A stretch of 64,000 bases of DNA from the NCBI RefSeq assembly GCF_041146795.1, contig NC_135188.1, forward strand, positions 481,376-545,375, in the 5' to 3' direction. The position numbers and the translations under genes are program-made. Shown here in pieces: positions 1 to 56,461 of this stretch; the first letter of the stretch is position 1, and every line of letters begins with the position of its first letter. The notes under the pieces are model-generated. The model was not told the DNA's origin. It was given only the letters and a program-made list of their open reading frames with translations, and searched no databases. The stretch comes from Maylandia zebra. Lineage: Eukaryota; Chordata; Actinopteri; Cichliformes; Cichlidae.

Positions 1-234
1 CAAGCTGCACAGGGCACACGCAGCACCAGGCAGAATTAATGACGTCCCTGATCCACAGCTCAAGCCCAGCCACCCGCTGCCTCCTCGCCGCCTCCTCCTG
101 GGACCTTCAAGGACCACCCACCAGCCACTGGTACACATTCCAATCTTACACAATGGCCCCAGCATCACAGGGCATCTCCTGACATTAAAATCTATCCTGA
201 TTTCTGTTGTTTTTCCCTCATCTCTGAGCCGCTG

Positions 235-292
<58 letters not shown>

Positions 293-508
293 TCTCTCTT
301 TTACACAAAAAACACATGTCAGTTGTTAAGGAAAATGTTATAAAACACTTCTTCAGTAAAGACTCAGAGAAGAGAAACACACAGAACTTCTTGCTAGCAA
401 GGGCAGCCTCCACTCTAAGAGACTCCAGTGAGAGAACTGCCCCGGTCTTTATTTTATACTCCATTGAGCGTGTGTGTGTGCGTGTGTGTGTGTGTGTGTG
501 TGTTGACA

Positions 509-539
<31 letters not shown>

Positions 540-586
540 GGAGAGATACAAAGGAATGTAATTCAAATTTTGCACTTCAGACCTTA

Positions 587-623
<37 letters not shown>

Positions 624-691
624 GACAGAGAGAGAGAGAGAGAGGGAGAGATACAAAGGAATGTAATTCAAATTTTGCACTTCAGACCTTA

Positions 692-730
<39 letters not shown>

Positions 731-1008
731 TGTCTTTTACACAAAAAATGCACTTGCAACAACTTTAATATGGAATGTACTGGACTTCCCAGCTAGGCGC
801 CCTCCTGTGGATGACAGGTGCAATTGATTGTCAAAAGCAGATATCTAACAGCTTCTGACACTTTGTACCGCATTGAGCCAGCAGAGGGAGCCCCCCTGGT
901 TCAATCCCAGTTGCACAGCAGTTGTGACCAGCTTCTGTCTGTGTGCTTTGGTGTGTGTGAGTGTGTGTGTGTGTGTGTGTGTGTTGACAGAGAGAGAGAG
1001 AGAGAGAC

Positions 1009-1051
<43 letters not shown>

Positions 1052-1088
1052 TACAAAGGAATGTAATTCAAATTTTGCACTTCAGACC

Positions 1089-1136
<48 letters not shown>

Positions 1137-1251
1137 TTTTACACAAAAAATGCACTTGCAACAACTTTAATATGGAATGTACTGGACTTCCCAGCTAGGC
1201 GCCCTCCTGTGGACGACAGGTGCAATCCCAGTTGCACAGCACTTGACCAGC

Positions 1252-1293
<42 letters not shown>

Positions 1294-1865
1294 CAGACAG
1301 ACAGACAGAGAGGGAGATTCAAAGCATCAGGACCAGGAGATGACACAGTGCTCCAAAGGCCTGGTTCTGCTGCCTCCTCCTCCACCCACCTGCTGCAGAC
1401 GCTTCTGTGAAGGGAAACTGCTACATGTTATGTCACCGATCCCTGCCATGCTGCGTGTCTAACGACCCGGCAGGGCCTGCTGAGTACAGTGGTGGTGGAA
1501 TCGGCCCGATCGGACACTCCTATCTGCCACTTTGACCTTTTTATTCCGTCAAATTTGGACCCATTTACACCAAGTCCAGAACCGTTGGTGCTATCGACAT
1601 GGGGTCTTCACCAGCGCGTGCGGAGCGGCAGAAACACCCCACGTAGACACCACTTTCATCCCTCTACGACACTTACTTTCCCAGTTATTCCATTTTATTC
1701 CGTCAAGCTCTGGCTAAATCCCCTTAACCTAAGCAACCCTAATCATACCTGCATTTGTCCACTGGAGGGAGACAAAAAAACCAAGCTCTGAGATTCAAAT
1801 TTTGAACTGCAGACCTCACAGTGTCTGTGTGTGTGTGTGTGTGTGCGCTTTGGTGTGTTTGCTTT

Positions 1866-1914
<49 letters not shown>

Positions 1915-2116
1915 CAGAGAGAGAGAGTGACACTTGCTGTGTATTTAAGAAACAAACGCTCAAAGAAACCAAACAGAATGACACAGGCAGAAAGACACTG
2001 TTTTATTTTGGTAACCAATGATGCATTTCTTCTTCCCTTGTACAGTGCACCCTGAAGCCGTGTGTGGACCAGGAGATCAGCAGAACAGGAACCACAGAGC
2101 GTCAGCGGCAGACATC
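1..2116. repeat. Satellite unit A1 (GT/GA-rich, about 2.1 kb)
   Basis: The 20-bp word at position 1 returns at 2117, 5075 and 7205, which defines units of about 2.1 kb. Each unit holds long (GT)n tracts, (GA)n tracts and unique-looking spacers, including a block at about 1463-1740 with two copies of TATTCCGTCAA. A1 and the unit at 5075 share variants that the other two units lack (for example CTCCTGGGACC and GAGCCCCCCTGG), so they belong to the same subtype. Open frames here translate to His-Thr or Cys-Val runs and are not genes. Near 1726 the unit carries a degenerate telomere-like string, CCTTAACCTAAGCAACCC. Confidence 0.93.
504..1095. repeat. Composite (GT)n-(GA)n minisatellite inside the satellite
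   Basis: Within each unit a subrepeat of about 90-110 bp occurs two to four times: (GT)n, then TTGACAGAGAG, a (GA)n tract, GGGAGAGATACAAAGG, then a spacer ending CTTCAGACCTTAC before the next (GT)n. Copies here lie at about 504-592, 622-692 and 983-1091; equivalents occur at about 2605-3390, 5577-6180 and 7698-8322. Tract lengths differ between copies, as expected for slippage. Confidence 0.9.
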
Positions 2117-4019
<1,903 letters not shown>

Positions 4020-4108
4020 CTTAACCTAACCCTAACCCTAACCCTAACCCCCTAACCCCCTAACCCTAACCCTAACCCCCCCTAACCCTAACCCTAACCC
4101 TAACCCTA
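4020..4108. repeat. Interstitial telomere-type tract (CCCTAA)n
   Basis: About 90 bp of CCCTAA with some CCCCTAA and CCCCCTAA variants. This is the C-strand of the vertebrate telomere repeat. It interrupts the satellite at the degenerate telomere-like word inside the unit. After the tract the satellite restarts from an earlier phase (AAATGCACTTGCAACAAC), so the tract marks a junction and not a simple insertion. Confidence 0.95.
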
Positions 4109-4211
4109 AATGCACTTGCAACAACTTTAATATGGAATGTACTGGACTTCCCAGCTAGGCGCCCTCCTGTGGACGACAGGTGCAATCCCAGTTGCACAGC
4201 ACTTGACCAGC

Positions 4212-4251
<40 letters not shown>

Positions 4252-4823
4252 CAGACAGACAGACAGAGAGGGAGATTCAAAGCATCAGGACCAGGAGATG
4301 ACACAGTGCTCCAAAGGCCTGGTTCTGCTGCCTCCTCCTCCACCCACCTGCTGCAGACGCTTCTGTGAAGGGAAACTGCTACATGTTATGTCACCGATCC
4401 CTGCCATGCTGCGTGTCTAACGACCCGGCAGGGCCTGCTGAGTACAGTGGTGGTGGAATCGGCCCGATCGGACACTCCTATCTGCCACTTTGACCTTTTT
4501 ATTCCGTCAAATTTGGACCCATTTACACCAAGTCCAGAACCGTTGGTGCTATCGACATGGGGTCTTCACCAGCGCGTGCGGAGCGGCAGAAAATCCCCAC
4601 GTAGACACCACTTTCATCCCTCTACGACACTTACTTTCCCAGTTATTCCATTTTATTCCGTCAAGCTCTGGCTAAATCCCCTTAACCTAAGCAACCCTAA
4701 TCATACCTGCATTTGTCCACTGGAGGGAGACAAAAAAACCAAGCTCTGAGATTCAAATTTTGAACTGCAGACCTCACAGTGTCTGTGTGTGTGTGTGTGT
4801 GTGCGCTTTGGTGTGTTTGCTTT

Positions 4824-4872
<49 letters not shown>

Positions 4873-5074
4873 CAGAGAGAGAGAGTGACACTTGCTGTGT
4901 ATTTAAGAAACAAACGCTCAAAGAAACCAAACAGAATGACACAGGCAGAAAGACACTGTTTTATTTTGGTAACCAATGATGCATTTCTTCTTCCCTTGTA
5001 CAGTGCACCCTGAAGCCGTGTGTGGACCAGGAGATCAGCAGAACAGGAACCACAGAGCGTCAGCGGCAGACATC
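4109..5074. repeat. Partial satellite unit after telomeric tract
   Basis: Satellite sequence resumes at the ATGCACTTGCAACAAC word, which lies about 1.1 kb into a unit, and continues to the next unit start at 5075. It repeats the block already present at 3450-4019, so the last 0.6 kb of B1 is present twice on the two sides of the telomeric tract. It carries the same GAAAATCCCCACG variant as B1. Confidence 0.9.
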
Positions 5075-5308
5075 CAAGCTGCACAGGGCACACGCAGCAC
5101 CAGGCAGAATTAATGACGTCCCTGATCCACAGCTCAAGCCCAGCCACCCGCTGCCTCCTCGCCGCCTCCTCCTGGGACCTTCAAGGACCACCCACCAGCC
5201 ACTGGTACACATTCCAATCTTACACAATGGCCCCAGCATCACAGGGCATCTCCTGACATTAAAATCTATCCTGATTTCTGTTGTTTTTCCCTCATCTCTG
5301 AGCCGCTG

Positions 5309-5364
<56 letters not shown>

Positions 5365-5546
5365 TCTCTCTTTTACACAAAAAACACATGTCAGTTGTTA
5401 AGGAAAATGTTATAAAACACTTCTTCAGTAAAGACTCAGAGAAGAGAAACACACAGAACTTCTTGCTAGCAAGGGCAGCCTCCACTCTAAGAGACTCCAG
5501 TGAGAGAACTGCCCCGGTCTTTATTTTATACTCCATTGAGCGTGTG

Positions 5547-5577
<31 letters not shown>

Positions 5578-5588
5578 TGACAGAGAGA

Positions 5589-5619
<31 letters not shown>

Positions 5620-5666
5620 GGAGAGATACAAAGGAATGTAATTCAAATTTTGCACTTCAGACCTTA

Positions 5667-5703
<37 letters not shown>

Positions 5704-5771
5704 GACAGAGAGAGAGAGAGAGAGGGAGAGATACAAAGGAATGTAATTCAAATTTTGCACTTCAGACCTTA

Positions 5772-5818
<47 letters not shown>

Positions 5819-6096
5819 TGTCTTTTACACAAAAAATGCACTTGCAACAACTTTAATATGGAATGTACTGGACTTCCCAGCTAGGCGCCCTCCTGTGGAT
5901 GACAGGTGCAATTGATTGTCAAAAGCAGATATCTAACAGCTTCTGACACTTTGTACCGCATTGAGCCAGCAGAGGGAGCCCCCCTGGTTCAATCCCAGTT
6001 GCACAGCAGTTGTGACCAGCTTCTGTCTGTGTGCTTTGGTGTGTGTGAGTGTGTGTGTGTGTGTGTGTGTGTTGACAGAGAGAGAGAGAGAGAGAC

Positions 6097-6139
<43 letters not shown>

Positions 6140-6176
6140 TACAAAGGAATGTAATTCAAATTTTGCACTTCAGACC

Positions 6177-6226
<50 letters not shown>

Positions 6227-6341
6227 TTTTACACAAAAAATGCACTTGCAACAACTTTAATATGGAATGTACTGGACTTCCCAGCTAGGCGCCCTCCTGT
6301 GGACGACAGGTGCAATCCCAGTTGCACAGCACTTGACCAGC

Positions 6342-6381
<40 letters not shown>

Positions 6382-6953
6382 CAGACAGACAGACAGAGAG
6401 GGAGATTCAAAGCATCAGGACCAGGAGATGACACAGTGCTCCAAAGGCCTGGTTCTGCTGCCTCCTCCTCCACCCACCTGCTGCAGACGCTTCTGTGAAG
6501 GGAAACTGCTACATGTTATGTCACCGATCCCTGCCATGCTGCGTGTCTAACGACCCGGCAGGGCCTGCTGAGTACAGTGGTGGTGGAATCGGCCCGATCG
6601 GACACTCCTATCTGCCACTTTGACCTTTTTATTCCGTCAAATTTGGACCCATTTACACCAAGTCCAGAACCGTTGGTGCTATCGACATGGGGTCTTCACC
6701 AGCGCGTGCGGAGCGGCAGAAACACCCCACGTAGACACCACTTTCATCCCTCTACGACACTTACTTTCCCAGTTATTCCATTTTATTCCGTCAAGCTCTG
6801 GCTAAATCCCCTTAACCTAAGCAACCCTAATCATACCTGCATTTGTCCACTGGAGGGAGACAAAAAAACCAAGCTCTGAGATTCAAATTTTGAACTGCAG
6901 ACCTCACAGTGTCTGTGTGTGTGTGTGTGTGTGCGCTTTGGTGTGTTTGCTTT

Positions 6954-7002
<49 letters not shown>

Positions 7003-7204
7003 CAGAGAGAGAGAGTGACACTTGCTGTGTATTTAAGAAACAAACGCTCAAAGAAACCAAACAGAATGACACAGGCAGAAAGACACTGTTTTATTTTGGT
7101 AACCAATGATGCATTTCTTCTTCCCTTGTACAGTGCACCCTGAAGCCGTGTGTGGACCAGGAGATCAGCAGAACAGGAACCACAGAGCGTCAGCGGCAGA
7201 CATC
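5075..7204. repeat. Satellite unit A2
   Basis: Nearly identical to A1 apart from microsatellite lengths, sharing A-type variants at the diagnostic sites. It begins 5,074 bp after A1, which fits a higher-order repeat made of one A-type and one B-type unit. Confidence 0.9.
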
Positions 7205-7643
7205 CAAGCTGCACAGGGCACACGCAGCACCAGGCAGAATTAATGACGTCCCTGATCCACAGCTCAAGCCCAGCCACCCGCTGCCTCCTCGCCGCCTCCT
7301 CCCGGGACCTTCAAGGACCACCCACCAGCCACTGGTACACATTCCAATCTTACACAATGGCCCCAGCATCACAGGGCATCTCCTGACATTAAAATCTATC
7401 CTGATTTCTGTTGTTTTTCCCTCATCTCTGAGCCGCTGAGTGTGAGTGTGAGTGTGTGTGTGTGTGTCTCTCTCTCTTTTACACAAAAAACACATGTCAG
7501 TTGTTAAGGAAAATGTTATAAAACACTTCTTCAGTAAAGACTCAGAGAAGAGAAACACACAGAACTTCTTGCTACCAAGGGCAGCCTCCACTCTAAGAGA
7601 CTCCAGTGAGAGAACTGCCCCGGTCTTTATTTTATACTCCATT

Positions 7644-7700
<57 letters not shown>

Positions 7701-7710
7701 GACAGAGAGA

Positions 7711-7745
<35 letters not shown>

Positions 7746-7792
7746 GGAGAGATACAAAGGAATGTAATTCAAATTTTGCACTTCAGACCTTA

Positions 7793-7833
<41 letters not shown>

Positions 7834-7836
7834 GAC

Positions 7837-7886
<50 letters not shown>

Positions 7887-7933
7887 GGAGAGATACAAAG
7901 GAATGTAATTCAAATTTTGCAGTTCAGACCTTA

Positions 7934-7982
<49 letters not shown>

Positions 7983-8239
7983 TGTCTTTTACACAAAAAA
8001 TGCACTTGCAACAACTTTAATATGGAATGTACTGGACTTCCCGGCTAGGCGCCCTCCTGTGGATGACAGGTGCAATTGATTGTCAAAAGCAGATATCTAA
8101 CAGCTTCTGACACTTTGTACCGCATTGAGCCAGCAGAGGGAGCACCTCTTGTTCAATCCCAGCTGCACAGCAGTTGTGACCAGCTTCTGTCTGTGTGCTT
8201 TGGTGTGTGTGAGTGTGTGTGTGTGTGTGTGTTGACAGA

Positions 8240-8274
<35 letters not shown>

Positions 8275-8318
8275 GGAGAGATACAAAGGAATGTAATTCA
8301 AATTTTGCACTTCAGACC

Positions 8319-8364
<46 letters not shown>

Positions 8365-8479
8365 TTTTACACAAAAAATGCACTTGCAACAACTTTAATA
8401 TGGAATGTACTGGACTTCCCAGCTAGGCGCCCTCCTGTGGACGACAGGTGCAATCCCAGTTGCACAGCACTTGACCAGC

Positions 8480-8513
<34 letters not shown>

Positions 8514-8942
8514 CAGACAGACAGACAGACAGAGAGGGAGATTCAAAGCATCAGGACCAGGAGATGACACAGTGCTCCAAAGGCCTGGTTCTGCTGCCTC
8601 CTCCTCCACCCACCTGCTGCAGACGCTTCTGTGAAGGGAAACTGCTACATGTTATGTCACCGATCCCTGCCATGCTGCGTGTCTAACGACCCGGCAGGGC
8701 CTGCTGAGTACAGTGGTGGTGGAATCGGCCCGATCGGACACTCCTATCTGCCACTTTGACCTTTTTATTCCGTCAAATTTGGACCCATTTACACCAAGTC
8801 CAGAACCGTTGGTGCTATCGACATGGGGTCTTCACCAGCGCGTGCGGAGCGGCAGAAACACCCCACGTAGACACCACTTTCATCCCTCTACGACACTTAC
8901 TTTCCCAGTTATTCCATTTTATTCCGTCAAGCTCTGGCTAAA
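7205..8942. repeat. Satellite unit B2, ends in a telomeric tract
   Basis: Shares B-type variants with the unit at 2117 and begins 5,088 bp after it. Like B1 it stops at CTAAATCCCCTTAACCTAA and enters CCCTAA repeats, so the satellite-to-telomere junction is at the same place in both B units. Confidence 0.9.
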
Positions 8943-9130
8943 TCCCCTTAACCTAACCCCTAACCCTAACCCCTAACCCCTAACCCTAACCCCCTAACCC
9001 CCCAAACCCCTAACCCCCTAACCCCTAACCCTAACCCCTAACCCCCTAACCCTAACCCCCTAACCCTAACCCCCTAACCCTAACCCTAACCCCTAACCCC
9101 CCTAACCCCCTAACCCTAACCCTAACCCTA
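8943..9130. repeat. Interstitial telomere-type tract (CCCTAA)n with variants
   Basis: About 190 bp of CCCTAA, CCCCTAA and CCCCCTAA repeats closing the satellite array. It ends as CCCTAACCCTAGCCGGGCC, joining the terminal word of the elements described downstream (AGCCGGGCCTATTC). All the repeat is in the C-strand orientation. Confidence 0.95.
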
Positions 9131-9299
9131 GCCGGGCCTATTCTTTCCCCACACCCTAACCAGCCTGTGCCTCCTGGGATTGGTGGTGCCCCTGCCCATT
9201 GCCTCTCTCCCTCATTGTGGGGAGCCCCCCACCCACTACCCTGTCCTTACCCTAACCCCATTGCCCCCCTCCCCCCTCCCCTTCTAGCCCTAACCCTAA
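9131..9299. repeat. Telomere-like degenerate C-rich segment with an element 3' end
   Basis: Begins with GCCGGGCCTATTCTTTCCC followed by CACACCCTAACC. The same terminal word and CCCTAA junction close the element ending near 10041, so this is the 3' stub of a further, mostly lost copy. The rest is C-rich sequence with scattered CCCTAACCC words and no coding signal. Confidence 0.7.
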
Positions 9300-9832
9300 G
9301 GGACACTTAAAAGCCTAAATAAAGAGAACGAACGACAAGAAAGTCAGAAAAAACAGTACACAAGGAAAGGATTTACAGGAAGGGGGTGCCATAACAGAAA
9401 AATACAGAACACAGGACGGGATGTCTAAAAGGAAGGGGGTGCCATTTAAAGAAGTAAGAATAAAGAAAAGAACATCAGAAAAATAAAGAGAAAGAATAAA
9501 GAGCAAGAAAAAGAATAAAGAACAAGAGAAAAACTAAAGAACAACAGAAATACAAAGAGAAAGATAAAGAAAAACAGAAAGAATAAAGAACAAAAGACAG
9601 AATAAAGCTCAAACAGAAATACAAAGAGAAAGATAAAGAAAAACAGAAAGAATAAAGAACAAAAGAAAGAATAAAGCACAAACAGAAATACAAAGAGAAA
9701 GATAAAGAAAAACAGAAAGAACAAAGAACAGAAAAAGTTTGAAAAAGGGAGAGCTAAAGCAGAAAAAACTGAGAGTAAAGAAAAAACTAAGAAACAGAAA
9801 AAGTTAAGAAAAACAGAAAGGAAAACGAAAAG

Positions 9833-9841
9833 TATAAAAGG
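9833..9841 (+). promoter_or_regulatory. TATA box of element copy 1
   Basis: TATAAAAGG is a consensus Pol II TATA box and lies 31 bp before the first base of the hammerhead fold. A start site 25-30 bp downstream would place the ribozyme at the very 5' end of the transcript. The same box stands before the other two copies. Confidence 0.6.
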
Positions 9842-9871
9842 CCAAGAGTGGCGAAACAGAACACAAAAGCG

Positions 9872-9927
9872 GGTGGGCCAGCCTGAGGAAGGCTCAAGAG
9901 AAGCCGAAACGTCGCGAATGGCCCACC
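9872..9927 (+). ncRNA. Hammerhead-like ribozyme motif, copy 1
   Basis: Helix I is formed by GGTGGGCCA (9872-9880) with TGGCCCACC (9919-9927), plus an inner GC/GC pair next to the core. The core is CTGAGGA (9883-9889), fitting CUGANGA. Helix II is GGCT/AGCC around a short loop, followed by GAAA and a minimal AC/GU helix III. The predicted cleavage site is after GTC (9911-9913). One extra A lies between the core and helix II, which departs from the canonical fold. Activity is not shown by sequence alone. Confidence 0.7.
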
Positions 9928-10562
9928 ACAGTGCACTACACCCGCTTAGGGTAATTTTTTGATCAGGGGGCACCAATACCAGTCCCATGGATGGACCGTG
10001 CACCTAGGTTCCGGCATAGCCGGGCCTATTCTTTCCCCACACCCTAACCCTAACCTAAATTAAGAGAAAAAAGACAAGAAAGGTCAGAAAAAAGACAGAG
10101 TACAAAAGGAAAGGATTTACAGGAAGGGGGTGCCATAAAAGAAAAATACAGTACAAAGGACGGGATGTCTAATGAGAAGGGGGTGCCATTTAAAGAAATA
10201 TAAGAAAGAATAAAGAAAAGAACACAAGAGGAATAAAGAGAAATAATAAAGAACAACAGAAAGGAAAAAAGAACAACAGAGATAAAAAGAGAAAGACAAA
10301 GAGAAATACAAAGAGAAAGGTAAAGAAAAACAAAGAATAAAGAACAAGTATAAGGAAAAACAGAAATACAAAGAGAAAGGTAAAGAAAAACAAAGAATAA
10401 AGAACAAGTATAAGGAAAAACAGAAATACAAAGAGAAAGGTAAAGAAAAACAGAAAGAACAAAGAACAACAGAAAAAGGGAGAGCTAAAGCAGAAAAAAC
10501 TGAGAACAAGTAAAAACTAAGAAACAGAAAAAGTTAAGAAGAACAGAAATGAAAAACAGGAG

Positions 10563-10571
10563 TATAAAAGG
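10563..10571 (+). promoter_or_regulatory. TATA box of element copy 2
   Basis: TATAAAAGG lies 33 bp before the hammerhead-like fold and is followed by the same CCAGAGTGGCGAAA context as in copy 1. Confidence 0.6.
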
Positions 10572-10603
10572 CCCAGAGTGGCGAAATTGAACACAAGAGC
10601 GGG

Positions 10604-10654
10604 TGGGCCAGCCTGAAGAAGGCTAAATTAAGCCGAAACGTCGCGAATGGCCCA
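10604..10654 (+). ncRNA. Hammerhead-like ribozyme motif, copy 2
   Basis: Helix I is TGGGCCA (10604-10610) with TGGCCCA (10648-10654), plus GC/GC at the core. The core is CTGAAGA, helix II is GGCT/AGCC around a different loop (AAATTA), then GAAA and GTC at 10640-10642 as the predicted cleavage site. Predicted cleavage here and in copy 1 would release an RNA of about 729 nt. Confidence 0.7.
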
Positions 10655-10775
10655 ACCCCAGTGCACTACACCCGCTTAAGGGTAATTTTTTGAACAGGGG
10701 GCACCAACACCAGTCCCAATGATGGCCCGTGCACTCAGGTTCCGGCATAGCCGGGCCTGCTCATTTCCTAACACC

Positions 10776-10927
10776 TAACCCTTCTGCCTGAGACCCCTTT
10801 CTTTACCCAAACCCATATTTTGCCCTAACCCTAACCACTATGATTGTGACCCTAACCCAATTATTTACCCTAACCCTAACCCATGTTATTAGCCCTACCC
10901 CAAATATCTTCCCCTAACCCTAAACTT
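10776..10927. repeat. Degenerate telomere-like tract between elements
   Basis: Scattered CCCTAACCCTAACC words (about 10833, 10880, 10914) within C-rich filler. It separates element copy 2 from the longer, more diverged third element. Confidence 0.75.
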
Positions 10928-11527
10928 TTTTTGGGGGGGTTCATTAATCTAAATCCATAAATAAATAAATAAATAACCTCATAATGATAAATACCACGGT
11001 ATTATTACATACTACAAATTGTGTACAATAAACAAACAATGGGGAAACGGGACATATTGGGCGTTAGAACTTTATTAAAACCGTTAACACAACAAATTTT
11101 TATTCATACCCCTTTTAATCACTTTACAATTCACACTAAAACAGTTGTCAAAATCAAAATTTATTAAAACCCCTAAAAATACATGTTGATTGAATACACA
11201 ACTCCAAGAAGCATAAAAACACAATTTGGCTAAAAACACAAATGCAATTTTCAGATCATAAACTAATTTCTCTATAAACTCACAAAAATTCATAAAAACA
11301 CGATTGGATTTAAAACATAAACATGCAAATTTGAAATCTCATATACATCACTTAAAAATACAGTTTTTTGAAAATTCACATAATATACAAAATATAAAAT
11401 ACATTTCATGCAATTTTATTACAAAGGTTAAAAAACACACATTCATTTTAGTCTAAAACCATCCCAGACATTTCAAAATACATTGCCTAACCTAAAATTC
11501 AAAAAAACTCACGTTGGAAACCAAGCC

Positions 11528-11536
11528 TATAAAAGG
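11528..11536 (+). promoter_or_regulatory. TATA box of element copy 3
   Basis: TATAAAAGG lies 86 bp before the hammerhead-like fold, farther than the 31-33 bp seen in the other two copies. Confidence 0.5.
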
Positions 11537-11621
11537 CTGCACAGTAGAGAGGAGCTCATTTGGGAGCTGACCGTTGAAGAGGCAACATCTCTCTCTCTCT
11601 GTGCATTCCCAGTTTATTCAT

Positions 11622-11678
11622 TGTGCCCCAGCCTGAAGAAGACCTATCTTGGGTCGAAACGTCGCGGCAGTGGGCACA
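11622..11678 (+). ncRNA. Hammerhead-like ribozyme motif, copy 3
   Basis: Helix I is TGTGCCC (11622-11628) with GGGCACA (11672-11678), plus the GC/GC pair at the core. Helix II is GACC/GGTC around TATCTTG. The core words CTGAAGA, GAAA and CGTCGC are unchanged from copies 1 and 2. Both helices have different sequences from the other copies yet remain paired, which is covariation support for a real RNA fold. Predicted cleavage is after GTC at 11661-11663. Confidence 0.7.
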
Positions 11679-12079
11679 TTAATTCATTGGTTTTCACTTA
11701 TTAAAAATTAAACAATTTTATTAATTTCATCTATTTTGGTTTAAAAACAAATTTCATTTACTTTTTTTACTTTTTCTTTTTTTCTCGCCTTGTTTGTGAT
11801 TGTAAATTCATATACACATAATTTACATATCTAACTGGAATAAATAGCACATTAAAACAATTATTAAATAAAGATAACAAAGGCGACATCAAGAGATACA
11901 AAAAAATCCATGGGGTCCCGGATGGACTCAGAAGGCTGGACGGTGGTGCGTCACGGGAGAGGGCGGCTGCCTTCCCGTAGACGTGTCCAGCAGGGGACAA
12001 GTGGCAGGGGTGGGGGGATGGACCGAGCACCGTCTGGACCCTTTAAGGACCGGACTCAATCCCACATCCCTAACCCTCA

Positions 12080-28668: not shown

Positions 28669-31097
28669 AGTGGACCAGCAGAGCTCAAAGGTTCCCAGTG
28701 GTCAGTCTGCCCAGCAGCATCAAACACAGCTGGACTCCATATTTATGGTCTGTACATGTACAACAACTACTGTTACATCTATTCTGTTCACAATCATCTC
28801 CATGCTGCTCTTTGTAGACCAGTGGATTGTCAGTGTGTCCAACATGTATCTGGTGTTTCGCTCCATGATTTCAATTTGATTGGCTCATTCATAAAGTATT
28901 CTGTTCCAGCTGCTGGAGGACAACATCATCACTTTTGTGAAGAACGAGCTGAAGAAGATCCAGAAGGTTCTGAGTCCAGATTACTCAGAATGCTCAGAGA
29001 GTCAGAGGGAGGATGATGAGGAGAGGAGCAGCAGAGAGGCATTTGTGAAGATCACACTGAACTTCCTGAGGAGAATGAAGCAGCAGCAGCTGGCTGACCG
29101 TCTGCAGAGCAGTAAGAGGATTTCAAAAGATTTAAGCTGCTGGTGAAACATGAAATATTTACTAATTTCCAAATACACAGACCAACATGTAAGAATTATT
29201 ATATATGGACCTTAAATCGTCTATGCATTTTGTAAAACAGCATAATGAATTTTACATTGTGTTTTATGTTTTTGTTTGTGTTTGTGTGGCTTTTTTTTTG
29301 AGAACTTCCAGCTTCAGTTTGTCACCGTAACCTTAAATCCACCCTGAAGAAGAAGTTCCAGTGTGTGTTTGAGGGCATCGCTACAGCAGGAAACCCAACC
29401 CTTCTTAATCAGCTCTACACAGATCTCTACATCACAGAGGAAGGGACTGCAGAGGTCAATGATGAACATGAGGTCAGACAGATTGAAACAGCATCCAGGA
29501 AACGAGACAGACCAGAAACAAGAATCAGACAAGAAGACATCTTTAAAGCCTCACCTGGAAGAGATGAACCAATCAGAACAGTGCTGACAAAGGGAGTGGC
29601 TGGCATTGGGAAAACAGTCTTAACACAGAAATACACCCTGGACTGGGCTGAAGACAAAGCCAACCAGGACATCCAGTTCATATTTCCATTCACTTTCAGA
29701 GAGCTGAATGTGCTGAAAGAGGAAAAGTTCAGCTTGGTGGAACTTGTTCATCACTTCTTTATTGAAACCAAAGAAGCAGGAATCTGCAGCTTTGAAGACT
29801 TCCAGGTTGTGTTCATCTTTGATGGTCTGGATGAGTGTCGAATTCCTCTGGACTTCAACAACACTACAATCCTAACTGACCCTAGAAAGTCCACCTCAGT
29901 GGATGTGCTGCTGATAAACCTCATCAGGGGGAAATTGCTTCCCTCTGCTCGCCTCTGGATAACCACACGACCTGCAGCAGCCAATCAGATCCCTTCTAAA
30001 TGTTTTGGCATGGTGACAGAGGTCAGAGGGTTCACTGCCCCACAGAAGGAGGAGTACTTCAGGAAGAGATGAGGAGATGAGGAGCAGGCCAGCAGGATCA
30101 TCTCCCACATCAAGACATCACGAAGCTTCCACATCATGTGTCACATCCCAGTCTTCTGCTGGATCACTGCTACAGTTCTGGAGGATGTGCTGGAAACCAG
30201 AGAGGGAGGACAGCTGCCCAAGACCCTGACTGAGATGTACATCCACTTCCTGGTGGTTCAGGCCAAAGTGAAGAAAGTCAAGTATGATGGAGGAGCTGAG
30301 ACAGATCCACACTGGAGTCCAGAGAGCAGGAAGATGATGGAGTCTCTGGGAAAACTGGCTTTTGATCAGCTGCAAAAAGGAAACCTGATCTTCTATGAAT
30401 CAGACCTGACAGAGTGTGGCATCGATATCAGAGCAGCCTCAGTGTACTCAGGAGTGTTCACACAGATCTTTAAAGAGGAGAGAGGACTGTACCAGGACAA
30501 GGTGTTCTGCTTCATCCATCTGAGTGTTCAGGAGTTTCTGGCTGCTCTTCATGTCCATCTGACCTTCATCAGCTCTGGACTAAATCTGCTGGAAGAACAG
30601 CAAACAACCTCTCAGAAGTCTGAAACAAGAGAATCTGCAGAGAAACTCTTCTACCAGAGTGCTGTGAACAAGGCCTTACAGAGTCCAAATGGACACCTGG
30701 ACTTGTTCCTCCGTTTCCTCCTGGGTCTTTCTCTGCAGACCAGTAAGACTCTCCTACGAGGTCTGCTGACAGACACGGGAAGTAGCTCACAGACCAATCA
30801 GGAAACAGTCCAGTACATCAAAAAGAAGCTCAGTGAGAATCTGTCTTTTGAGAAAAGCATCAATCTGTTCCACTGTCTGAATGAACTGAATGATCGTTCT
30901 CTAGTGGAGGAGATCCAGTTGTACATGAGATCAGGAAGTCTCTCCACTCGTAATCTGTCTCATGCTCAGTGGTCAGCCCTGCTTTTCATTTTAATGTCAT
31001 CAAGAAAAGATCTGGATGTGTTTGAACAGCAGAAATACTCTTCAGAGGAGGTTCTTCTGAGGTTGCTGCCAGTGGTCAATGCCTCTAATAAATCTCT

Positions 31098-32820
31098 GTA
31101 AGTAAATAGGTGCTCATCCCTTAATTTTGTAATTATTTTGTGCACAATTTTTAAAAAATAACTGTAATGGATGCTGGTATCTAGAAATTGGATAAAATCT
31201 TAAGTGGTCATCAGTACTCAATTCAATAGAGAATACATGTGTAGGAGCAGAAATTGTCGGCATTTCTGAAATAATTCTGGTTGTAATTGTTATTAAAGTA
31301 ACATCCGGACCATAAGAACACAAGACCCAGCCTGTAGTGAATCCATACGTGATAATCATCAACTCTTCAAAAACGAATAGAAAAAAACTCATGTTTTGTT
31401 CATATCAAAAGCAATTTGAGTGAACCAGTGTTCTGTTACTGCACTGTTCTCTCTTCAGTATTCCTCATTTCCCAAAATACTAACTGGGTTGTCAGTTAAA
31501 GACGTGTTCACTCTTATATACTACACTAAGCCTTGGTTTTACAATCACCCAAATTTTGAAGCTGCTGGTGAATTTAATCATTTTCTTCATGTTGCTTGTG
31601 GGTTCCTGTTGCCAGTTCTCAGAAAAATCTCATTCTTTTTTTCTACAGCTTTGCCTCAATCCCCCCTGTTTCTACTTCTCTGATTAGTGCTGTCCTCCCC
31701 TTCAACCTTTTTCATGATATTGGATTCAGTTTGTATTTTATTTCTTCTTTCAGTCAGTCAGTCAGTCAGTCAGATTGACAGAATGCCATGACCAGTATAG
31801 ACACAAAGGCACTATTAACACTGGAAAATGAAGCATGAGACTGCTGACTGTCTCTAATCGCTTTGTGGATGATCCTGATGTAAGGATTTGGGTTATTACT
31901 CTGCTTCTGTGGGAATAATTGCCAAGAAGTCTATACTGCACCAACCTCTCAGCCTTGTTCAAATTACCCAGCCTTTTAGCTTTTATTCTAGGTCACACCC
32001 TCTATCTACATTCCTCACACCTGCATTGTTCAATGCTAGATGCCAGGACCATGCCTCTTCTTGTTTCCTCTGAACCTGGGTTGTTCTGCTTAAGCCAGCA
32101 CCTTACCAGAGTATAGTCAACCTGTAGTATTCCTCTAAGTCTTGAAAGATGTGGCTAGTCTTCTTGGAGTCTGATTTCCATGTGACTGAGCTGATTACCT
32201 GAGAAATTGTGCCTCCTGTTCCTGAACTAGCTAATCCTGAAGCAGATGATCCTGAACCCAGAATTTTGAGGCACATGAGCCTGCATGGCCCAGATCCTGA
32301 GGCAGTGTCCTGTTCCTGAACTGGAGCTGGCTGAACCGAAGACTAAGGCCACTGCTGGCTATGTGCCTGGCCTTCAGATTGGCTGTGTCTCTGTGGTTGG
32401 CCACATGTTTATCCACCTGAGAGGACTCAGTTACATCTCTGGCTTGACCATATTCTATCTTTAGACTAGCAACTTCACCACTGGAAATTCACCACTGGCT
32501 GGTTAGCTCCACCTTGATTTCCAATTATTTGTCCTGTCTCATTGATGGCGTGCTGATCAATCACCCTGCCTGACCATCACTGGGCATCCTCATTGTCCAA
32601 GTGGATAGTTCTACCTCAGGCACCTTTTTCCTCAGCCTTCAGAGGGTCTGTGTCCTGTTTTGCCTTCAGAATGGCACATAGAGAGGTTCCACTATCTTGT
32701 TCTATGTTTAGGTTTACTAATCTCACATTGCTCATTTACAGCCTTGTCAGTCTCAAAATATTGTGTATAATTTCTAACGCATAAACTTTAGTCAGCAGTA
32801 TGTAACTACATCATCAACTA
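31098..32820. other. No gene recognised; expected LRR exons absent
   Basis: A/T-rich and CT-rich sequence with a short (CAGT)n at about 31752-31775. LRR exons would show L..L.L repeats in frame with the GTAAGT donor at 31098; none were found on the plus strand. Sentence-like phrases near 32080-32420 (CCTGAACC, CCTGAGGC) look like low-level repetition. Confidence 0.5.
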
Positions 32821-42093: not shown

Positions 42094-43230
42094 ATGTCGG
42101 ACTCAGCGGACATTTCAGAGGAGGTAGGAGAGGAGCTGAACAGGCTCTGCCGCATTATGGATCGCATCATCGGATGGACGGATCCAAGAGTGGTTTCCAT
42201 GGGATTGGCGGCCGTGGACGCCATTTTGTTGCGGGAGCCACGGTTGCGACAGCTCCCCCACCTCATCGAGGCGTTTGACTCCCTGGGCCCCCTTAAGGAG
42301 GAGCTTCATGCCCTTGCGCTGGCCCAGAGGGTCCTGAATGCCGCCTCAGCACCCACACCTCCACCCCGTAAACGGGTGTCGTCATGGCTGCCTCATGAGC
42401 CAGAGGCTGTGAGAGGTGGAACGCTCAGGCCCACTTCCACTCAGCCATCGCCTCACCGTGGATCGGCTTCCTCGTTTCTGCCACAGTCAAGCTGCACTGA
42501 CCAGCACACGGAGGCGATGGAAGCCATAGATTTTGGTGACGATGAGCGTCAGCAGGTGTTACGGGCTTATCGGGAGGAGGAGCTCCGTTGGAAGCCTTGG
42601 CTCATTCCCGAGGAGGAGTTCCCACCTGTCGCCCTGCTTCAGACCGGCCGCTCACCTTCACCGCCTCGCGAGGACTTCTCGTCTCCGGCCGCTTGTCTGT
42701 CGAGGATGTGGGCAAAGGAAGAAGACCCGATCCCAACAGTTAACGCTGCCGCGCTCGCGGCCGCTCCCAGGAGGAAGCGGCGTCGGCGTCGCTCTACACG
42801 GCACTCAGAGGTTAGTGATAATGTTCTGTTGCCACTGAAACGCCCTGGATGTAATGAGGGCGAGGGGCTGGGAAAGACAATTAAGGTCTCGGAGATGGAG
42901 ACTCAATTTACCTGTACTGTTAACTCTGTCACCCCCCCATGCACCTCATCGCGGTCTGTTTTCTCGGGGGCCAGTGAAGAAGCTGTCTTTTCCATGCCTC
43001 TGACTGCTAATGTTGAAGGTGTTAATCTTGTGCCCACGTTGTGTTTTGACAACAAAGCTAAAATTTCTGATGTTGGGCACGCTATTCTTGGGGAAAACAC
43101 ACTGCCATCACCGAACTGTGAAACCGACACTGCCAAACCGGCCATAGACTCTTCAGTCCTGAGAATTAAACCAAGTGATGTACTGTTAAACCCTGGTATT
43201 ATGTATGAGCAGGCTGAGGGGGGACATTAG
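42094..43230 (+). CDS. Gag-like protein, N-terminal frame (378 aa)
   Basis: ATG lies 13 bp after the LTR end. The N-terminal 90 residues are helical and Leu-rich (EELNRLCRIMDRIIGWTD to LAQRVLNA), followed by Pro-rich sequence, an acidic stretch and a basic run (PRRKRRRRRSTRH at about 42766-42804) that could bind nucleic acid or act as a nuclear signal. No protease, RT, integrase or zinc knuckle is visible. Its position after an LTR suggests a Gag-type role in a non-autonomous LTR element, but I do not recognise the protein family. It ends at TAG 43228 inside the start of the next frame; a six-G run just before (about 43216-43221) may explain the frame change. Confidence 0.6.
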   Translation: MSDSADISEEVGEELNRLCRIMDRIIGWTDPRVVSMGLAAVDAILLREPRLRQLPHLIEAFDSLGPLKEELHALALAQRVLNAASAPTPPPRKRVSSWLPHEPEAVRGGTLRPTSTQPSPHRGSASSFLPQSSCTDQHTEAMEAIDFGDDERQQVLRAYREEELRWKPWLIPEEEFPPVALLQTGRSPSPPREDFSSPAACLSRMWAKEEDPIPTVNAAALAAAPRRKRRRRRSTRHSEVSDNVLLPLKRPGCNEGEGLGKTIKVSEMETQFTCTVNSVTPPCTSSRSVFSGASEEAVFSMPLTANVEGVNLVPTLCFDNKAKISDVGHAILGENTLPSPNCETDTAKPAIDSSVLRIKPSDVLLNPGIMYEQAEGGH

Positions 43231-46075
43231 CGAAACAGAATGTACTAATGATTCTGCACACCCAGAACATCCATCTTCCACTGAGAGGGCTTCTTTTAAG
43301 ACCGCTACGGCATCTGGGGCCTTATTTAAGACCGTGTCTCAGCCCCTGCTGTCCGTTAACTACAAATTAAGTGAGAAAGCTTCTGATCGGACCAGTAGTA
43401 AGACTGTATTGCCTTTGGCTAGCACCCCCCTTTCCAAGTCTGTTTTCCTTGTTCCCAAGTCAAATAACAAATGTTCTGTTTGTATAACTAGGCCAGCGAA
43501 AGAAGAAATGTCCAGTGTTGATCATGAAAATGTCTGTTATGATCCTGTGCTGATCGGTCCCCATGTTCCTCACTCTGCTGATGGTTTGACCAGAGTGAGT
43601 GCTTTGGAGCCCGACATCAGCGACTGCTTTTCTACACCAGTCCATCGGGCCGGGAAAAATATTATGGGTCTGCCAGGATTCCCTATGTCCGTGAATGACA
43701 TTGCAATTTCCGTTAATACAAAACTGAAGGACTGTTTAAGTTATGCTCCTGTTTTATCCAATGACAAGGCTGAATTTTGTGTTTCCAAGACTGTCGGGGG
43801 GGAGCGCCATGCTAGTCATTACAAACCAGCTAGCCCTTTAACTGCACCCCTGGGCCAGGACCTTTTGACAGCAGTTAATGAACTGGCCGATCTAAAGACA
43901 ATTCAGCCGGATTGCTCAGAGCCAGTCCACTATGTTTTCTGTGCAAAGCCAAGTCCATGTGCATTCCACTCACTAGCCTTCTACAGCCGATTAGTGTGTG
44001 TGGCTGAACCCCTCCTTAACTCAGTCTCGCCAACGGGGGGCTTAGATTCCAATAAGCGTAGTTATTTCCCATGTGACTGCCAAATTATTGTGTTAAAATC
44101 ATCTGCACATAGTCCTGGTTGTTTTATGTGGGTTCATGAATCAAGTCTTGGCCTTAAGACTCATGCTTCCTGGGACAATATAACTATCACTTATGTCACT
44201 GAGCCAACTTATTTCAGGTCTGAAATGTTGTTTGAATCGTGCTCCAAGACAGAAGGTGTGTTTAGCTCCCCAAGAAGGGCAACTAAGGACAAGCCGGACT
44301 GTGTTAAGGACTTAGAGACTTTAAGGTTTTTGTCTGTCGTTGCTCCTCTGCTTACACCTGACAAAGTCAATGTCCGGAACTTTGTGCTCACTCCCAGGGT
44401 GGCTGTGGCGTTGCCTGACCTCTCACCTGCGTCTGATCTCCAGGTAGAGGCAGTGGTCACCCATCCAGCACCTGAGCTAGTTCCCACCACCAGGGTCAGG
44501 GCAGCCGTAGGTCAGCCATATCCTGCACCTGCATCTACACCTCAGGTGGGAATGGCTGCCGTCCGGTTTGTTCCTACACCCGGGTTGGTTCCCAAGGTTA
44601 TGCCAGTCAGCACACAGCTGAGCTCCGCACCCAGCCTAGGCACTTGGGTGGGAGCGGTTGTCGCTCTGCAGGCGCCTGCACCAGCTCATGTTTCCATTGG
44701 AGGCTCAAGAGAATCATCTCCGCCACAACAGCCTCCTACTCAGGTGGCAGCCCTGCTCCCGGTCCAGCCAGGGGCCTCCATAACTGTTCATCCTGCGCCT
44801 GCTGCTGGATGCCTGGGTGTGCCTATCCGGCACCCTGCAGCATCCACACCACTTCACGTCATGCCAGCTGGAGGGCCCGAGGAGCCCGTCCAGTCCCATG
44901 CCACGTCAGCTGGGGGGCCCGAGGAGCCCGTCCAGCAACCTTCCTCGTCAGCTGGGGGGCCCGAGGAGCCCGTCCAGCCACCAGCTGCTCCACCAGCAGC
45001 CTCATCCACGCCTGCAGCAGCAGTTTCATCCACACCGCTGCCTGCTGCAGCGCCTCCATCTCCGGCTTCCACGCCGCCGCCAGCTGCGGTCTCCGAGTCT
45101 TCGTCCTCGCCAGCTGCGGCCTCCGTGTCTTCATCGTCGCCTGGTCCAGCCTCCGTGTCTTCACCCACGCCGTCGCCTGGTCCAGCCTCCGTGTCTTCAC
45201 CCACGCCGTCGCCTGGTCCAGCTACAGCCTCCGCCTCAGCTTCGGCGTCATCAGCTTTGTGTTCGCCTGGTCCAGCTTCAGCCTCCACCTCAGCTTCATC
45301 AGCTTCGCCTGGTCCAGCCTCTGCCTCAGCTTCGCCTGGTCCAGCATCTGCTTCAGCTTCACCCGCTTCGCCTGGTCTGGCTTCACCTCCGCCTGGTCCA
45401 GCTTCAGCATCCGCTTCAGCGTCGCCTGGTCCAGCCTCCGCTTCAGCTTCTGCTTCGCCTGGTCCAGCCTCCGCTTCAGCTTCTGCTTCGTCTGGTCCAG
45501 CCTCCGCTTCAGCTTCTGCCTTGTCTGGTCCAGCCTCCGCCTCGCCTGGTGCCGCAGGGATCACGCCACCTTCAGGTCCCAAACTGCCGCCTCAACGTCA
45601 TCGATCATTTGTCAGGCCGCTTGTTGGTCATCATCACCACTGTGGCCGCCCTCCGGACTTCTGTTGCCACCCCCCCCCCCTTCCGCGTGGACGACCTCCT
45701 ACACGCCACCACTGCCTTCCGCGTGGCCGGTCTCCAGACTTGCATTCCCGCAGCCGTTGCCGTCCGCACGGTCGGCCCCCAGAACTGCTTCCTCGCCGCC
45801 GTTGCCATCCGCACGGTCGGCCCCCTGAACTGTTTCCACGCCGCTGCCTACTGCGTGGCCGGCCTCCGGACCTGCCCCACTGCCGCTGCCATTCACATGG
45901 TCGGCCTCCGGAACTGAACTGTTTTGGCCTCCTGCGCTGTCGGCCCCCTGAACTTGGCCATCTGGGCCTTTTTGGAATCTCAACAGGGTTGTCCGATAAG
46001 AACAGATGGCGTATCCACAAAATCCACTGCCACTCAGTTATCTGCCGTTCACTCATTTATTTAACAAGAATCTGA
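43205..46075 (+). CDS. Continuation frame: long Pro/Ala/Ser-rich repetitive protein (956 aa)
   Basis: Overlaps the previous frame by 26 bp and lies in the +1 frame relative to it, so the two probably formed one protein of about 1,330 residues. The first 400 residues are non-repetitive. Then come Pro-rich sequence, three GGPEEPVQ repeats (about 44868-44985), a long S-P-G-P-A-S-A-S region (about 45130-45560) and His/Arg/Pro-rich GRPPEL-type repeats (about 45645-45950). GGPEEPVQ and GRPPEL blocks recur in the minus-strand protein at 56461-58458. The last 25-30 residues (from about 45980) read like unrelated sequence, so the element is truncated and has no 3' LTR here. Confidence 0.6.
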   Translation: MSRLRGDISETECTNDSAHPEHPSSTERASFKTATASGALFKTVSQPLLSVNYKLSEKASDRTSSKTVLPLASTPLSKSVFLVPKSNNKCSVCITRPAKEEMSSVDHENVCYDPVLIGPHVPHSADGLTRVSALEPDISDCFSTPVHRAGKNIMGLPGFPMSVNDIAISVNTKLKDCLSYAPVLSNDKAEFCVSKTVGGERHASHYKPASPLTAPLGQDLLTAVNELADLKTIQPDCSEPVHYVFCAKPSPCAFHSLAFYSRLVCVAEPLLNSVSPTGGLDSNKRSYFPCDCQIIVLKSSAHSPGCFMWVHESSLGLKTHASWDNITITYVTEPTYFRSEMLFESCSKTEGVFSSPRRATKDKPDCVKDLETLRFLSVVAPLLTPDKVNVRNFVLTPRVAVALPDLSPASDLQVEAVVTHPAPELVPTTRVRAAVGQPYPAPASTPQVGMAAVRFVPTPGLVPKVMPVSTQLSSAPSLGTWVGAVVALQAPAPAHVSIGGSRESSPPQQPPTQVAALLPVQPGASITVHPAPAAGCLGVPIRHPAASTPLHVMPAGGPEEPVQSHATSAGGPEEPVQQPSSSAGGPEEPVQPPAAPPAASSTPAAAVSSTPLPAAAPPSPASTPPPAAVSESSSSPAAASVSSSSPGPASVSSPTPSPGPASVSSPTPSPGPATASASASASSALCSPGPASASTSASSASPGPASASASPGPASASASPASPGLASPPPGPASASASASPGPASASASASPGPASASASASSGPASASASALSGPASASPGAAGITPPSGPKLPPQRHRSFVRPLVGHHHHCGRPPDFCCHPPPLPRGRPPTRHHCLPRGRSPDLHSRSRCRPHGRPPELLPRRRCHPHGRPPELFPRRCLLRGRPPDLPHCRCHSHGRPPELNCFGLLRCRPPELGHLGLFGISTGLSDKNRWRIHKIHCHSVICRSLIYLTRI
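45130..45560 (+). repeat. Coding repeat: Ser-Pro-Gly-Pro-Ala units
   Basis: Repeats built on TCGCCTGGTCCAGCCTCCG and GCTTCAGCTTC, giving S-P-G-P-A-S-A-S-A-S in the main frame. Three frames and the opposite strand are also open across the block because of the repeat periodicity. Confidence 0.85.
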
Positions 46076-56446: not shown

Positions 56447-56461
56447 CCCCCCCCCCCCCCC
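56447..56461 (-). other. Polypurine tract (G run) before the 3' LTR
   Basis: A run of about 14 C on the plus strand, read as G on the minus strand, lies between the gag-like frame and the LTR start. LTR elements use a purine run at this place to prime plus-strand DNA. A pure G run is unusual, and could also have expanded by slippage. Confidence 0.6.

Follow-up and report, generated by a model that had tools for sequence, protein, structure and literature searches.

Minimal type I hammerhead motifs in a candidate telomere-directed Penelope-like element family with two ORFs in the cichlid Maylandia zebra

Background

Penelope-like elements (PLEs) carry minimal hammerheads of type I order that lack helix III, lie in a pseudo-LTR and occur in tandem copies (Cervera and De la Pena 2014; Lunse, Weinberg and Breaker 2017). 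Literature citing these papers describes minimal hammerheads as being used as dimers. The telomere-attached PLEs described in the accounts available to us are endonuclease-deficient and come from rotifers, fungi, protists and plants. Terminons with Athena elements of bdelloid rotifers are reported to have PLE reverse transcriptases (RT) at chromosome ends, in arrays running head to tail, to be cut short on the 5' side by telomeric repeats, to include GDSL esterases among their accessory functions and to carry, close to the 3' end, a hammerhead that precedes telomeric repeats in reverse complement; they are endonuclease-deficient and up to 40 kb long (PMC6431247, PMC12477314). The Poseidon element PAc of Anolis carolinensis is reported to have a single ORF with RT and a C-terminal GIY-YIG domain, a hammerhead, a tail, and AT-rich targets. 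Its protein cuts DNA and initiates synthesis inside the RNA, at a stem-loop downstream of the hammerhead, where the genomic copy ends as well; the hammerhead cuts only in the presence of the protein, and uncleaved RNA is the main substrate (PMC11167929).

Here we analyse a window of Maylandia zebra DNA, that is, the whole stretch of 64,000 nucleotides studied (C22:481376-545375; the genome is 962 Mb). We consider it probable, at roughly 0.77, that three folds in it are minimal type I hammerheads of a telomere-directed, two-ORF PLE family with short derivatives in a teleost host. The folds have the type I order, the lack of helix III, the pseudo-LTR place and the tandem copies of the published minimal hammerheads; the fish families differ from these by lying mostly near contig ends and may also differ by a fixed extra A before helix II. 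Leaving aside the missing endonuclease and the giant size, the fish element shares with terminons most of these features, with a telomeric word that is not immediately adjacent to the hammerhead. It is 5.2 kb long, has GIY-YIG fused to RT and a predicted GDSL-like fold in ORF1, resides in a vertebrate and uses CCCTAA. Since GIY-YIG is present, it falls outside the terminon group, which is defined by the lack of an endonuclease, although it seems to work like terminons. With PAc it has in common RT with C-terminal GIY-YIG, the hammerhead, the tail and a putative start of reverse transcription inside the RNA, at a stem-loop that follows the hammerhead; it differs by having two ORFs, by CCUAACC at that place and by lying mostly near contig ends. 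Tx1_Acar of Anolis is a LINE, not a PLE. It is likewise listed as a telomere-associated retroelement, in a vertebrate (PMC10088271). Among the matches listed in a literature search, no title or abstract described a telomeric PLE in a vertebrate, which does not establish its absence from print; motif words retrieved only unrelated papers among the matches listed.

Hammerhead motifs

All three motifs of the original prediction are present on the plus strand, each downstream of a shared word.

9833-9841, plus strand: word TATAAAAGG, upstream of hammerhead copy 1
9872-9927, plus strand: hammerhead copy 1, predicted cut after 9913
10563-10571, plus strand: word TATAAAAGG, upstream of hammerhead copy 2
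10604-10654, plus strand: hammerhead copy 2, predicted cut after 10642
11528-11536, plus strand: word TATAAAAGG, upstream of hammerhead copy 3
11622-11678, plus strand: hammerhead copy 3, coding family, predicted cut after 11663

The order in each copy is helix I, CTGANGA, an extra A, helix II, GAAACGTC and helix I. In every copy the strands of helices I and II are complementary, and between copy 3 and copies 1 and 2 both sides of the pairs are changed, as had been claimed. The pattern CTGANGA-N8-30-GAAACGTCG matches the window three times and 100 shuffles of it not once. The strict form CCTGANGAAG...CGAAACGTCGC has 881 matches genome-wide against none for the reversed control, which rules out a chance motif. 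Judged by their sequence, the three motifs are real and represent minimal type I hammerheads without stem III, of the kind known from PLEs. The original prediction had named both PLEs and retrozymes as relatives. The former assignment stands, since the motif is flanked on one side by the TATAAAAGG word and on the other by ORF1 of a PLE that has RT and GIY-YIG domains; the latter is weaker.

Compensatory changes extend to 12 hammerhead copies, taken from the window and from loci (L numbers below) fetched elsewhere, and involve both helices. The four outer pairs of helix II are complete in 11 of the 12; the decayed copy L020 has one A-C, and it is also the single copy in which the core word is not intact (TTGAAAA). 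GAAACGT[CT] follows helix II in 12/12 copies, leaving no normal helix III. The extra A before helix II, originally noted as atypical, is present in all 12 and is a fixed feature of these families. Helix I was tested on nine representatives: own partners pair with a mean of -18.7 kcal/mol, swapped partners with -11.4, and the own-partner sum was not attained in any of 20000 permutations. In seven of nine rows the own partner fitted best, related families partly fitting each other.

The expectation that Rfam would recognise the motif failed. The gathering score of Hammerhead_1 (RF00163) was missed and no Rfam hammerhead model matches, probably because these models expect stem III. A genome search with RF00163 gave 0 matches, yet it gave 0 in its 14 control genomes as well. 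With no Rfam match, the identification rests on core words, covariation and context.

A second hairpin (the tail hairpin) lies downstream of the hammerhead, about 10-16 nt ahead of the word C(C)CTAACC.

10005-10028, plus strand: tail hairpin 1
10736-10759, plus strand: tail hairpin 2 (complementarity)
12032-12055, plus strand: tail hairpin 3, within the ORF1 coding stretch

Its arms covary in eight representatives (own -18.5, swapped -11.5, permutation p 5e-5), with the own arm fitting best in just four of eight rows and one tie; for L007a, the anchor of this comparison landed on a second, nested tail. The copy-2 hairpin is absent from the minimum-energy fold of the 58-nt stretch tested. In the coding family the tail hairpin falls within ORF1.

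The coding element and its short derivatives

The copy-3 motif repeats at C1:43.7-64.5 kb with a period of 5185 bp (five units). One of these units (L051) encodes ORF1 of 619 aa and ORF2 of 756 aa, the latter with RVT_1 (9.5e-8) and a C-terminal GIY-YIG domain (2.6e-6); the five C1 copies of ORF2 are 100% identical and have no stops. Tandem units with RT and C-terminal GIY-YIG within one ORF are what a canonical, endonuclease-positive PLE has. Copy 3 corresponds to the 3' portion of one copy of this two-ORF PLE, whose 5185-bp unit is arrayed on C1. The 3' UTR of the coding element contains CCCTAACCCTAACC words. A second coding PLE family was observed at the left end of C5 (L005:8900-10000); its hammerhead has GAAACGTTGC and, upstream, TATAAAAGG.

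No match to ORF1 was found among Pfam and PDB sequences. A structural model of its Sarotherodon relative, built on 30 sequences and confident solely in about residues 107-241 and 430-603, has a C-terminal alpha/beta domain with pLDDT >90 across most of residues 440-600. Foldseek relates this domain to SGNH/GDSL hydrolases: PatB is the best match (3.7e-6), followed by PAF acetylhydrolases and GDSL esterases, with TM-scores by target length of 0.35-0.68 among the matches listed. According to the model, the C-terminus of ORF1 is an SGNH/GDSL-like fold. The words GDSN, GLN and DHLH, which we take to be catalytic, are readable in the sequence. Among named relatives of ORF1, the one from the tilapia Sarotherodon galilaeus is closest (89% identity), and further ones are from other teleosts, including Scophthalmus, Hemibagrus, Channa, Pampus and Larimichthys. 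No relatives of the element were found in the viral contigs searched.

Hammerhead copies 1 and 2 belong to short units. Such units form arrays at C1:1-39 kb (1063 bp), on C4 (673 bp) and on C13 (706 bp). They retain the TATA word (TATAAATAG in L013 and L007b), the hammerhead, the tail hairpin and a word resembling CCTAACC (CCCTTACC in L013); the two ORFs would not fit into their length. The tail and the stretch around MDRAP are similar between the short units and the coding PLE. Units within arrays are alike: all eight are identical in L001; L004 has 14 units, 10 of them distinct, with a mean identity of 99.7%; the 13 units of L013 represent three distinct sequences, two of odd length; and C1:1-33 kb contains two distinct 1063-bp sequences. 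An 889-bp period is common to C2 and C11.

Insertion ends

Nine of ten 3' junctions of insertions lie at C(C)CTAACC: those of window copies 1-3 (W1, W2, W3) and of L007b, L015b, L015c, L020, L054 and L055. Within arrays the tail continues as CCTAACCAGCC (L001, L004, L015a, L007a, L051, L052) or CCCTTACCAGCC (L013), and window copies 1-3, L007b, L015b, L015c and L020 depart from this course at C(C)CTAACC; for L020, where the next sequence is AACCCTAATC, there is no in-array sister for comparison. L054 and L055 are two C1 array ends whose positions were predicted by the rule before the sequences were retrieved, and both junctions were as predicted, namely CCCTAACC|CCCATATTTT and CCTAACC|CTAACCCCCTAACCC, respectively. 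The tenth junction, that of a 30-bp piece at 10782-10811, ends ambiguously, short of CCTAACC. Telomere-like repeats continue past the junction in copy 1, L015b, L015c, L007b and L055; the flanks of copies 2 and 3 and of L054 soon diverge. That nine out of ten insertions end at a C-rich word capable of pairing with the telomere suggests that the elements add themselves to chromosome ends.

A tail of the copy-1 family followed by CCCTAACCCTAACC occurs at nine places in the genome (at most one mismatch). Eight are at contig ends on the expected strand: three of them just past the proximal-most array unit on C2, C11 and C13. Three of the eight (two in L015, one in the window) also count among the nine junctions above. 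The ninth, with one mismatch, is on the plus strand of C10, 0.96 Mb from the right end. The distance from the cut site to the CCTAACC word is about 130 nt in short units and about 405 nt in coding copies. In L051 and L052 this word lies within ORF1, where it encodes P-N; at the protein level, P54 is present in 30/30 aligned ORF1 relatives and N55 in at least 90%. No insertion 5' end coincided with the ribozyme cut site among the few 5' ends examined.

The window itself contains several insertions side by side.

8944-9130, plus strand: degenerate telomeric (CCCTAA)n tract that meets the copy-1 insertion at its truncated 5' side, with the final 2 bases common to both
9129-10049, plus strand: copy-1 insertion, starting within a tail hairpin and ending at the next tail
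10042-10049, plus strand: CCCTAACC at the 3' end of the copy-1 insertion, then CTAACC
10054-10780, plus strand: copy-2 unit (85% identity with copy 1), with CCTAACC at its end (10774-10780)
10782-10811, plus strand: short piece resembling the tail of the L013-type family
10812-12075, plus strand: 5'-truncated copy of the coding PLE, with 3' UTR containing CCCTAA words, TATA word, hammerhead and ORF1 start
11910-12075, plus strand: beginning of PLE ORF1 (MGSRMDSEGWTVVRHGR...HIPN), broken off where the insertion ends on its 3' side

In length, the copy-1 insertion exceeds one unit: 9129-9161 repeats 10017-10049 with 100% identity, so its template covered more than one unit. The coding copy ends at CCCTAACC (12068-12075) on AT-rich DNA. 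From the centromere side to the telomere side, the order is coding copy, short piece, copy 2, copy 1 and (CCCTAA)n, which would be the expected trace of repeated additions at an end with 5' truncation.

Elsewhere in the window, positions 1-8800 consist of repeated GT- and AG-rich units, in which 300-bp references recur every ~2.1-3.0 kb, with a CCCTAA tract at 4030-4109; these repeats are an independent subtelomeric satellite. A gene of the FISNA-NACHT NLR type, in two open stretches with one stop between them, occupies 29302-31098. Long ORFs of 378, 956 and 665 aa at 42094-46075 (plus strand) and 56461-58458 (minus strand) have no Pfam match at E 0.001.

Chromosomal location and polarity

A genome search with ORF2 gave at least 61 matches (59 of 1345 candidates scored), 46 of them on contigs of known length and the other 15 on C19, C33 and C47. 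Thirty of the 46 lie within 500 kb of a contig end, and at left ends 15/15 are on the plus strand, at right ends 15/15 on the minus strand. This is the orientation expected if the C-rich strand is sense, and it holds at 13 of 13 ends (two-sided sign test on ends, 0.0002); counting ends is fairer than counting matches, since those within an array depend on each other. As control we used a LINE of the same window. Among the 79 matches listed of 28734 candidates, 72 are on contigs of known length, and two of these fall in the terminal 500-kb regions, which make up 2.3% of the sequence. The location at ends with a C-rich sense strand is terminon-like, though 16 of the 46 ORF2 matches, about a third, are interior, more than 500 kb from an end.

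The hammerhead motifs show a similar distribution. Of the first 100 strict matches (out of 881), 95 are in the outermost 100 kb of C1 and C2, and the other five are at C1:42.04 Mb. The copy-3 hammerhead has 13 matches, eight at left ends, all on the plus strand, and five on right arms, all on the minus strand, one of the latter 3.56 Mb from the end. Hammerhead arrays of the opposite polarity were found on the minus strand at C1:1-39 kb, in the left 10 kb of C4 (15 sites) and in the left 10 kb of C13 (14 sites), and on the plus strand at the right end of C14 (at least 15 sites). On C1, the two array orientations are separated by a 100-N scaffold gap. Perfect polarity was thus rejected as a general rule for hammerhead arrays; it holds for the 30 near-end ORF2 matches.

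The largest interior group of ORF2 matches is at C9:31.63-31.65 Mb, from where hammerhead units continue to 31.69 Mb. This region (C9:31.630-31.691 Mb), 6 Mb from the end, contains stop-free ORF2 copies (69% identity to the query) and at least 43 hammerhead units on the plus strand. It may reflect a join made in assembly, an old point of fusion or a genuine insertion in the interior. None of the 19 contig starts (left ends) has a long pure telomere array; six begin with at least 5 kb of N, and one of these six is all N. The left end of C14 (L014) has TTAGGG words every 800-895 bp in another repeat, which is without the GAAACGTCG word.

A second fish

An 11-kb contig filed under a fish-gut bacterium (L052, LJHE01000041.1, from Epulopiscium single-cell data) contains tandem PLE units with a period of 5441 bp, an ORF2 66% identical to that of M. 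zebra and six CCCTAA words at the contig start. Its hammerhead, CTGATGAAGACCCCTAAAGGGTCGAAACGTTGC, is of the same ribozyme type. Most likely this is DNA of the host fish contaminating a bacterial record, and another fish thus probably has the same element layout.

Proposed mechanism

The sequences themselves show how the elements are built, the covarying helices, the excess near contig ends, the strand bias of coding copies and the CCTAACC 3' ends; telomere priming, binding by the protein, and ribozyme cleavage with its role are inferred. As the simplest account, pairing of CCUAACC, the complement of the vertebrate telomere G strand, with the telomeric 3' end would fix the start of reverse transcription. 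Tandem units would be transcribed from the TATA box just ahead of the ribozyme, and the ORF2 protein would bind the tail (hairpin and CCUAACC) of the next unit. CCUAACC would then pair with the G-rich 3' strand of the telomere, at the natural overhang or at an end that GIY-YIG has opened. Reverse transcription would proceed from there toward the RNA 5' end, making the sense strand of the added DNA the C-rich strand, and would often halt early, producing 5' truncation. Telomeric repeats would be added again, and the next element would land on them. The hammerhead should cleave the tandem transcripts; as helix III is only an ACGU palindrome, the ribozyme, if active, would need a dimer or the element protein.

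One further possibility, which we regard as rather unlikely, is that cleavage and ligation by the ribozyme yield unit-length RNA circles, that CCUAACC on such a circle is paired by a telomeric 3' end, and that the RT, a relative of telomerase, copies the circle repeatedly, so that even arrays arise in one event. The copy-1 insertion exceeding one unit and the array 3' ends lying on the tail would agree with this. On the other hand, no 5' end was observed at the cut site, recombination also yields identical units, read-through transcripts also span units, and the reported substrate of PAc is mainly uncleaved RNA (PMC11167929). If circles were nevertheless used, a retroelement-based end maintenance would lengthen teleost chromosome ends beside telomerase.

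TRAS and SART elements nick telomeric tracts with their own endonuclease. Similarly, the primer could be a GIY-YIG nick within double-stranded telomeric tracts rather than the natural overhang. This variant of the best explanation is a serious candidate, though we put it somewhat below even odds. Location, polarity and 3' ends would be the same as under overhang priming. The domain is retained in ORF2, telomeric repeats occur 3' of L007b and L015c and 5' of the piece at 9129, and the PAc protein is reported to cut DNA and initiate internally (PMC11167929); against a nick, W3 and the five-unit C1 array are trailed by few or no telomeric bases.

The hammerhead units might instead be a subtelomeric satellite spread by end-to-end recombination, for which a PLE was just the seed and which involves no telomere pairing. 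The likeness of units within arrays and the period shared by C2 and C11 would fit, and short subtelomeric CCCTAA tracts could also arise by recombination, a point against telomere priming. However, 3' ends at one word in 9/10 cases across different families, with 5' ends at differing points, would not be expected of a satellite; moreover, the coding arrays are open and L052 shows the same layout. We consider this explanation unlikely. Finally, it is very improbable that the units are animal retrozymes, which are small retroelements with circular RNA and type I hammerheads and would have no relation to PLE coding: short units in tandem, each carrying a single hammerhead, would suit them, and very weak helix III is reported for amphibian retrozymes, but retrozyme hammerheads are described as mostly canonical with loop contacts (PMC7229834), the helix III of the canonical type I form used to define metazoan retrozymes is absent here, and the tail and MDRAP stretch are similar in short units and coding PLE.

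Telomere-primed addition of a two-ORF PLE remains our preferred reading. An endonuclease-positive PLE with a hammerhead appears to attach to telomeres in a vertebrate, and probably in another fish too, as endonuclease-deficient relatives do elsewhere. This would join three loose facts about PLEs, the ribozyme, the internal start of reverse transcription and the kinship with telomerase, in a testable form. If the element is active, it would bear on the growth and divergence of fish chromosome ends.
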